Assembly: GCA_024639785.1 (NCBI GenBank)
Contig: JAHEGI010000009.1
Coordinates: forward strand, 8,192 to 62,424
Origin: Cryomorphaceae bacterium
GTDB taxonomy: Bacteria; Bacteroidota; Bacteroidia; Flavobacteriales; Schleiferiaceae
Length of the DNA stretch: 54,233 bases
Direction: 5' to 3'
Shown piece after piece: positions 26,543 to 28,398 of this stretch. Numbering within the stretch: position 1 is the first letter of the stretch; every line of letters begins with the position of its first letter. The notes below the pieces were generated by a model. That model was not told where the DNA came from. It saw nothing but the letters and a program-made list of their open reading frames with translations, and searched no databases. The position numbers were made by a program, and so were the translations under genes.

Positions 26543-26929
26543 TTAACAGCCAGCGGATCCGTTGCTGTATGGAAGCACCACAATCTTCATAACGACCGTG
26601 CTGTCTGGTTCAAGTTTGAGGTAACCGCAGCCAAATACCACGGGAGGATTGTCTCCTTTTTGGGCAGTGATTTGTAAAACAGCCGGCATGGTGTACTCAA
26701 AAACATCATCTCCAGAGTCATTGCGCATGATGCCGTCGATGCCCGTATGGCCTTGAAAGTCCGGGATGGCATTGACCACGGGCGCGGTAGCGCGCACATA
26801 GGCGTTTTGAATGGGTGTACCGTTTTCGTCAATGACTTCCACAGAAAAGCTGTAGACCGGTGCGTCTTTCTTTTTACAGGCGCTTAGGCCCAAAGTGATG
26901 ACGAGGAGAGCGAGGAGCAGACGTTTCAT
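26543..26929 (-). CDS. Small lipoprotein, paralogue of the adjacent one
   Basis: This 128-residue protein has a lipoprotein signal (MKRLLLALLVITLGLSAC, lipidated Cys 18). A single beta-rich domain with the motif NGTPIQNAYVRATAP follows, similar to carboxypeptidase-regulatory-like/SusD-tail beta folds. The neighbouring gene encodes the matching motif SIPIQNALVRLFAP, so they are tandem paralogues. I choose the MKRLL start because it gives an ATGA overlap with the upstream gene; MPPMKR three codons earlier is possible. Function unknown; probably attached to the outer or inner membrane. Confidence 0.8.
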   Translation of the reverse strand: MKRLLLALLVITLGLSACKKKDAPVYSFSVEVIDENGTPIQNAYVRATAPVVNAIPDFQGHTGIDGIMRNDSGDDVFEYTMPAVLQITAQKGDNPPVVFGCGYLKLEPDSTVVMKIVVLPYSNGSAGC

Positions 26930-27324
26930 TGGGGGCATCCGTTATTTAAGTCGCCAAAAGGCTTCATGAAGACAACAATTTCGGCCACAGAGCCCTTTGT
27001 GACGTGCACATAGGAACAACCGCGCCATCCTCCTTTGGCCGCTTCCACGTCCAAAAAGGCTTCGCCATCAAATTTGAATGAAGGCTCACACCATCCATCT
27101 ACCCCAGAGTAGCGATAATAACTTCCTTGGGTGTTTGGATCCGTAAACAAGGTGTTTGTGCCCGGTGCAAAAAGGCGCACTAGGGCATTTTGAATCGGAA
27201 TAGAATCCTGATTCAAGACGCGAACGCGCACTTGAGAACGCGTATCTTCCTCCTCACAACTGGTGCTCAGTCCGAGGATACTGAAGAAAATTAGACTCCA
27301 AACGAGTGTTTTGTTGAGCTTCAT
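26926..27324 (-). CDS. Small lipoprotein, first gene of a tandem pair
   Basis: This 132-residue protein has a signal ending in GLSTSC (Cys 23) followed by acidic EEED. A beta-rich domain with VRVLNQDSIPIQNALVRLFAP and a later GVDGWCEPSFKF matches the layout of its downstream paralogue. The start at MKLNKT is set by the signal peptide; the longer open frame runs into pheS promoter DNA. It shares overlapping promoters with pheS. Function unknown. Confidence 0.8.
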   Translation of the reverse strand: MKLNKTLVWSLIFFSILGLSTSCEEEDTRSQVRVRVLNQDSIPIQNALVRLFAPGTNTLFTDPNTQGSYYRYSGVDGWCEPSFKFDGEAFLDVEAAKGGWRGCSYVHVTKGSVAEIVVFMKPFGDLNNGCPQ

Positions 27325-27344
27325 CCGGGTTTGCAATAGTTTTG
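27314..27344 (+). promoter_or_regulatory. pheS promoter (TTG-N20-TAGTTTTG)
   Basis: The -33-like TTG (27314-27316) is followed after 20 bases by a perfect -7 box TAGTTTTG (27337-27344). Transcription would start inside the adjacent palindrome, about 30 bases before the pheS ATG. This is one of the few places here where both elements fit the Bacteroidota consensus. Confidence 0.65.
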
Positions 27345-27345
27345 C

Positions 27346-27359
27346 GCTCAGCGCTGAGC
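27346..27359. promoter_or_regulatory. Perfect 14-base palindrome between facing promoters
   Basis: GCTCAGCGCTGAGC is a perfect inverted repeat placed between the -7 boxes of the rightward pheS and leftward lipoprotein promoters, at both predicted start points. It could be an operator for a dimeric regulator or a 5' hairpin. Confidence 0.45.
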
Positions 27360-27366
27360 AAATATA
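27359..27366 (-). promoter_or_regulatory. -7 box TATATTTG of the lipoprotein pair
   Basis: A perfect TAnnTTTG on the minus strand lies 34 bases before the lipoprotein start and faces the pheS box. A TTTC lies 21 bases upstream as a weak -33 candidate. Confidence 0.55.
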
Positions 27367-27381
27367 AACGATTCCTTTCCC

Positions 27382-28398
27382 ATGCTGGAAATCATTGAAA
27401 AACACATTCGAACGATTGAGCAAACGACCCTTTCCACTGCGGAAGAGGCGGAGAACTTTCGTATTCAATACCTTGGAAAAAAAGGCATTTTAACTACGCT
27501 GTTTGCTGATTTTAAGACCGTTCCCAACGAAGAAAAGAAGGCGGTTGGCCAAGCGCTTAATGCGCTGAAAACGAGCGCAGAAGCGACTTTAGCCCAAATA
27601 CAAGTCAAGCCAAGCGCTCGGAAGAGTGGCCCGGTGGAGGATTTTAGTCGTCCAGGCTACGCTACACCCCCAGGAGCCCACCACCCTATTTCATTAGTTC
27701 GAAATGAGATTGTTTCCATCTTCGAAAGAATGGGCTTTGCGGTGGCACAAGGACCTGAGATGGAAGACGATTGGCATAACTTTTCGGCATTAAATTTCCC
27801 ACCAGAGCATCCTGCGCGCGACATGCAGGACACCTTTTTCTTGGCAAAAGACCCGGATTGGGCGCTTCGAACGCACACTTCAAGTGTTCAAGTCCGCACC
27901 ATGGAAAGCCAGAAGCCCCCCATCCGCATCATAGCTCCTGGACGTGTTTTTCGAAATGAAGCGATTTCAAGTCGTTCCCATTGTGTGTTCCACCAAGTGG
28001 AAGGGCTTTACATTGACCAGAATGTTTCTTTTGCAGACCTCAAGCAAACCTTATTGGAATTTGCACGGGCTTTCTTTGGCGAAAAGACAGAAATCCGCCT
28101 CCGCCCGAGCTATTTCCCATTTACTGAACCCAGTGCCGAAATGGATATTTGGTGGGGACTGGAAAATGAAGTGGACTACCGCATGACGAAGGGCACGGGC
28201 TGGTTAGAAATTATGGGATGCGGCATGGTAGACCCGGCCGTATTGGAGTCCTGTGGGATCGACCCCGGCGTGTATAGTGGCTATGCCTTTGGCATGGGCA
28301 TAGAGCGCATCGCCATGCAGCGATTCCAAATACCCGACATTCGAGCCTTCTACGAGAATGATTTACGTTTCTTAGGGAACTTTAGCGGAGCGGTGTAA
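27382..28398 (+). CDS. pheS: Phenylalanyl-tRNA synthetase alpha subunit
   Basis: This 338-residue class II synthetase alpha chain pairs with PheT to charge tRNA-Phe. It has an N-terminal helical tRNA-binding arm (1-90) and a catalytic core. Motifs are HPISLVRNEIVSIFERMGF, FNSALNFP-like HNFSALNFPPEHPARDMQDTF, motif 2 FRNEAISSRSHCVFHQVEG and motif 3 GFAMGIERIAM-like FGMGIERIAMQRF. pheT is not adjacent, as is common in Bacteroidota. It ends at a bidirectional terminator shared with pyk. Confidence 0.96.
   Translation: MLEIIEKHIRTIEQTTLSTAEEAENFRIQYLGKKGILTTLFADFKTVPNEEKKAVGQALNALKTSAEATLAQIQVKPSARKSGPVEDFSRPGYATPPGAHHPISLVRNEIVSIFERMGFAVAQGPEMEDDWHNFSALNFPPEHPARDMQDTFFLAKDPDWALRTHTSSVQVRTMESQKPPIRIIAPGRVFRNEAISSRSHCVFHQVEGLYIDQNVSFADLKQTLLEFARAFFGEKTEIRLRPSYFPFTEPSAEMDIWWGLENEVDYRMTKGTGWLEIMGCGMVDPAVLESCGIDPGVYSGYAFGMGIERIAMQRFQIPDIRAFYENDLRFLGNFSGAV

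Follow-up and report, generated by a model that had tools for sequence, protein, structure and literature searches.

The operator of the Escherichia coli bio operon sits between its two promoters. These promoters, which serve bioA and bioBFCD, are described as lying face to face under the control of BirA (PMC3494674). A second related arrangement is that of the bidirectional promoters of Warman et al., from E. coli and others, which are pseudo-symmetric and whose starts are stated to lie most often 18, and also 10 or 23, bp apart (PMC12825309). For the E. coli promoters of this type, direct steric exclusion is described, strong activation on one side is stated to repress the other, and the basal activity of the five that were tested is given as too low for competition (PMC12825309). 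Single sigma-A promoters of Bacteroidota are described with the −7 consensus TAnnTTTG (PMC7366714; PMC9723704). In Flavobacterium psychrophilum, this box occupies −12 to −5 and the median leader measures 24 nt (PMC9723704); the median leader given for B. thetaiotaomicron is 32 nt (PMC7366714).

Here, we analysed the intergenic gap upstream of pheS in a Cryomorphaceae bacterium. The whole stretch of DNA under analysis (54,233 nucleotides), hereafter the window, is contained in a 1.82-Mb genome. The named relatives closest to this genome are for the most part MAGs that carry the labels Schleiferiaceae, Cryomorphaceae or Flavobacteriales. Two small lipoprotein genes diverge from pheS, and 57 bp separate the start of the first of them (27324, minus strand) from that of pheS (27382, plus strand). 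The locus comprises the following features:

26543–26938, minus strand: second lipoprotein gene (listed at 131 aa), which begins within the end of the first lipoprotein gene
26926–27324, minus strand: first lipoprotein gene, 132 aa, with a signal peptide ending in LGLSTS followed by Cys, and with divergent homologues
27315–27317, plus strand: TTG, possible −33 element of the rightward promoter, at a 19-nt spacer and within the lipoprotein coding sequence
27337–27344, plus strand: rightward −7 box TAGTTTTG of the putative pheS promoter, 6/6 consensus positions
27346–27359, no strand: palindrome GCTCAGCGCTGAGC, perfect over 14 bp and, from its conservation and frequency, judged to have arisen by chance
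about 27349, plus strand: predicted pheS transcription start, leader of about 33 nt, placed by the F. psychrophilum register (PMC9723704)
about 27354, minus strand: predicted lipoprotein transcription start, leader of about 30 nt, placed by the same register (PMC9723704)
27359–27366, minus strand: leftward −7 box TATATTTG of the putative lipoprotein promoter, 6/6 consensus positions
27382–28398, plus strand: pheS, phenylalanine–tRNA ligase alpha subunit, 338 aa (PF01409, E 4.1e-96; PF02912, E 1.9e-17)

The gap appears to be a conserved case of the already known face-to-face divergent promoters: two boxes face each other within a divergent gene pair, and each lies downstream of the start predicted for the other. 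It resembles the bio operon in its face-to-face promoters and differs from it in that no conserved symmetric operator was found at the pheS gap, where just one of the 20 close loci has the palindrome in perfect form. With the promoters of Warman et al. it would share two polymerase orientations at one place and the steric exclusion described for them (PMC12825309). Unlike those promoters, the boxes here are separate, face inwards and lie 14 bp apart, and the predicted starts lie in crossed order about 5 bp from each other. This predicted distance falls outside the 10, 18 and 23 bp stated for that type (PMC12825309). Among the matches listed from the open-access literature, no title concerned the pheS arrangement or opposed TAnnTTTG promoters.

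The rightward box TAGTTTTG and the leftward box TATATTTG, the latter being the complement of CAAATATA at 27359–27366, both fit the Bacteroidota sigma-A −7 consensus at 6/6 fixed positions. As the original prediction had described, they face each other with 14 bases between them (27345–27358). The TTG that it had placed 20 bases upstream of the rightward box is present, but at 19 nt; in the alignment, it is absent at such spacing from the sub-clade L014–L020. Upstream of the leftward box, a TTG was sought at a distance of 17–23 nt and none was there. Because Flavobacterium johnsoniae is also described as lacking the −33 TTG (PMC7366714), this element was not taken as a strict criterion. Compared with Bacteroidota sigma-A (sigma-ABfr) promoters, the locus agrees in its 6/6 boxes and in its predicted leaders of about 30 nt, which fit the median lengths of 24 and 32 nt given above; the missing −33 element on the left side is the sole difference at the level of the single promoter.

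Both predicted starts fall within the palindrome, in agreement with the earlier expectation that they would lie in or next to it, and the transcripts would share about 6 nt at their 5′ ends. An Rfam search of positions 26900–27800 returned no family up to E 1, and thus no RNA-family leader such as an attenuator or T-box. In the predicted minus-strand leader (27313–27354), TGAGC can pair with GCTCA right after the lipoprotein start codon. This leader folds at −6.3 kcal/mol, a value calculated without a shuffle control, and self-pairing of the palindrome is not involved in the fold.

The product of the first lipoprotein gene had no Pfam, NCBIfam or PDB match (query, residues 1–129 of 132); that of the second had no Pfam family, and its NCBIfam matches were all far below the cut-offs. 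The two genes overlap by 13 bp as listed (26926–26938); an internal ATG at 26929, taken as the start of the second, would reduce this to 4 bp. This overlap makes translational coupling of the pair likely.

We consider the 57-bp gap to hold two ordinary sigma-A promoters, serving pheS and the lipoprotein pair respectively, which lie face to face 14 bp apart and start within a few bases of each other (probability about 0.72). The sequences directly show both boxes, which are conserved in place among close loci and in order among other genera and families; they also show that the lipoproteins are homologous and that the bases between the boxes have turned over. Beyond this, both boxes would be used, with starts near 27349 and 27354, and a polymerase bound on one side would exclude a polymerase on the other. 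The footprint of RNA polymerase is large enough for overlap at near-coincident starts. Since the predicted starts nearly coincide and the footprints would overlap almost wholly, exclusive occupancy would be expected. The layout may most simply be space-saving, as a short divergent gap would put the upstream half of each promoter into the opposite gene, and the face-to-face order is probably favoured by short gaps. The exclusion itself would then be a by-product, relevant only under strong expression of one side. Expression of pheS might be coupled inversely to that of the lipoproteins, a point that sequence cannot judge.

A pheS match was obtained in 54 of 60 genomes, including that of the window. 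We examined 50 of these 54 loci (all but those of G028, G042, G051 and G058) together with 15 of 80 named loci. A homologous small lipoprotein gene diverges from pheS at 42 of the 65 loci, in several families of the order (L002–L050, L063–L079); the arrangement is thus found in other genera and families as well. A profile built from 7 of the 42 candidates matched 41 of them at E ≤ 0.001 in a search among those 42, with the weakest matches at L038 (4e-4) and L033 (6e-5). L005 was added to the set by hand, and L085, which is non-homologous (E 4.3), was left out.

Boxes were searched within 75 nt before each start. A locus was scored as face to face if the rightward box matched at least 5/6 and the leftward box 6/6 positions, with the rightward box to the left of the leftward one and 0–30 bp between them; where equally good boxes tied, one opposed pair sufficed (L022, L029). 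Among the 37 loci at which this divergent pair is separated by ≤90 bp, 34 had face-to-face boxes, compared with 0.8% of 7,400 equally searched shuffles; the loci are kin to one another, so that the 34 are not independent events and the shuffle figure is no probability for independent events. With this limit, the comparison supports the opposed, overlapping promoters originally predicted for pheS and the lipoprotein genes. The positive loci span nine genera of the window's family and four other families, in addition to the named loci. Of the three misses, L009 and L064 have lost the rightward box at this place and L023 has a leftward box of 5/6. At L030, a 6/6 rightward box beyond the search range overlaps the leftward box.

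Conservation was followed most closely in 20 close loci: the window itself, the named loci L063 and L064, and 17 loci from the same genus as the window. None of the 20 departs from the leftward box of the window, and 15 of them carry a 6/6 rightward box at position −45 or −46 relative to pheS. In L012 and L013 the rightward box scores just 5/6 (TAATTTGG), as it does in most other genera (e.g. TAATATTG or CATCTTTG). In the sub-clade L014–L020, where the gap measures 44–45 bp, the rightward box is still TAGTTTTG, even though the lipoprotein start codon reaches it. Six representatives from beyond the closest clade were compared with the window; their identity to it was 0.88 in the rightward box and 1.0 in the leftward box, against 0.49 for the pheS leader and 0.43 for the spacer.

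Loci without the lipoprotein gene provide a further comparison. Of the loci examined from the 60-genome set, 14 are lipoprotein-free; in the 110 bp next to pheS, 11 of these have a 6/6 rightward box, whereas a 6/6 leftward box occurs in none. Judged from this pattern, each box tends to accompany its own gene, although kinship may contribute, as 13 of the 14 lipoprotein-free loci come from other families. Helical phasing of the box distances was also considered and dropped, a circular test on 16 hand-listed genus-level distances giving p of about 0.16–0.19.

The palindrome invites a different explanation. The original prediction had equated it with the 14 bases between the boxes and proposed it as an operator or a shared 5′ hairpin. 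It is indeed perfect, but it occupies 27346–27359 rather than 27345–27358; it is thus offset by 1 bp from the inter-box interval and takes in the last base of the leftward box. An operator of the kind found in the E. coli bio operon, bound by a repressor or activator that governs the two promoters, would account for the perfect symmetry, for a centre within 1 bp of the promoter axis and for the 5 or 6 of 7 pairs kept by the seven closest loci. However, all 7 pairs are found at the homologous place in the window alone, and the check on relatives for which the prediction had called went against it: none of the other 19 close loci keeps the palindrome perfect. The 12 close loci outside the closest clade have 1–3 of 7 pairs there, or 4–5 of 7 at the best alternative placement. 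No compensatory double change occurs among the eight loci of the closest clade, and the spacer identity of 0.43 outside it likewise argues against a retained binding site. The exact palindrome GCTCAGCGCTGAGC has a single copy in the genome, which therefore holds no regulon of exact copies, and perfect palindromes of at least 14 bp number 5 in the window against 3.3 expected. As for a hairpin, a plus-strand transcript from 27349 would retain a stem of two pairs only; a start two bases earlier would permit four. On this evidence (one perfect case in 20, no compensatory change, chance-level frequency, a two-pair stem) we rejected the palindrome as a conserved operator or shared hairpin. Either role appears unlikely from sequence comparison, and joint control of both promoters by a bound regulator is highly improbable. 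The palindrome is more probably a chance outcome of drift in the spacer in this one genome.

Two further explanations concern the boxes themselves. If there were a single working promoter, one box would be functional and the other a by-product of the A/T-rich gap. The absence of a −33 TTG on the left and the loss of the rightward box at this place in L009 and L064 are consistent with this; together with the rightward boxes of 5/6, they also count against the two-promoter reading. Yet each box is conserved where the surrounding bases are not, and each tends to accompany its own gene, even if the lipoprotein-free loci come mainly (13 of 14) from other families. We regard a single promoter as quite improbable. 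Alternatively, the layout itself could have been selected as a switch, in which competition between RNA polymerases couples pheS inversely to the lipoproteins. The recurrence of the layout across genera and families despite a changing spacer would fit selection of this kind, as would the steric exclusion described for E. coli bidirectional promoters, where a strongly activated side represses the other (PMC12825309). The distance between the boxes, however, varies from 1 to 17 bp among pheS loci, so that no fixed competitive geometry has been retained, and the basal activity described in E. coli is too low to compete (PMC12825309). Of the five loci with gaps above 90 bp, one (95 bp) is face to face and four, of 118–210 bp, read back to back; the latter count against a selected switch, though their order carries little information because the 75-nt search range largely forces it. 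Selection for competition is accordingly an improbable explanation, and we retain the two ordinary promoters as the preferred reading.

To place the arrangement in context, we surveyed opposed boxes in the window's own genome, using 20 sampled stretches and the window (399,071 bases). Genes were called with a crude caller, except that both lipoprotein genes of the window were placed manually; 4 of 50 divergent pairs were left out because their starts overlapped. Gaps of ≤80 bp were found in 21 of the 46 remaining pairs. The best boxes were face to face in 21/21 short gaps and back to back in 25/25 longer ones, a split that the search range partly forces. In three of the 21 short-gap pairs, including that of pheS, the boxes scored 6/6 on both sides. 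Before 183 first genes, sense TAnnTTTG boxes clustered near the start, with 58 at 10–59 nt and 9 at 60–159 nt; the corresponding antisense counts were 27 and 23.

Exact opposed boxes 8–24 bp apart occurred at five sites in this genome, compared with two for the reversed pattern; at distances of 1–20 bp the counts were 6 against 5. Neither range gives a clear excess, which counts against the two-promoter reading of the pheS gap. Three of the five sites, the pheS gap among them, lie at divergent gene pairs, one inside a gene and one at a same-strand gene junction. At G000:C10:34045-34084 (L146 12045-12084), boxes 24 bp apart span a 27-bp intergenic space between a divergent pair, which we take to be a GldB-like lipoprotein gene and an NAD-synthetase-like gene. 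At G000:C12:20350-20373 (L147 12350-12373), boxes 8 bp apart lie near the starts of divergent genes, presumably an alanyl-tRNA-synthetase-like gene and an M23-peptidase-like one. Opposed boxes at a distance of 7–8 bp had matches in 20 of 22 genomes of the genus, perhaps at this same site.

Across the 60 genomes, opposed boxes numbered 1,327 against 788 in the reversed-pattern control, which preserves base composition only, with 50 genomes above their control and 9 below. Back-to-back boxes gave similar figures (1,398 against 814; 51 genomes above and 9 below). The ratio of opposed boxes to control was highest at a distance of 6 bp: in the 60 genomes, of which the window's own is one, TAnnTTTG-N6-CAAAnnTA was found 120 times and its reversed control 39 times (ratio 3.1), compared with ratios of 1.2–2.2 at the other distances tested. 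By genome, the 6-bp counts against control were 15/3 in G053, 10/0 in G058, 7/1 in G046 and 0/0 in the window's own. Gene context was examined in the window's own genome, and the excess of opposed boxes over the 60 genomes, strongest at 6 bp, is for us a lead only. It is conceivable, though doubtful, that Flavobacteriales possess a distinct geometric class of bidirectional sigma-A promoters, with inward-facing TAnnTTTG boxes, coincident or crossing starts and a preferred spacing (6 bp prominent), at which the two polymerase orientations exclude each other. The pheS–lipoprotein gap would then be an old, conserved member that ties the synthetase to envelope lipoproteins.

The functional part of this locus is probably something other than its conspicuous palindrome. 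The pheS–lipoprotein gap itself provides a well-conserved test case for how two genes start from one short gap in compact Bacteroidota genomes, and it also offers a test of the regulatory weight of polymerase competition. Should opposed sigma-A boxes form a general class in the phylum, the start sites already mapped in Flavobacterium and Bacteroides would allow a direct test.
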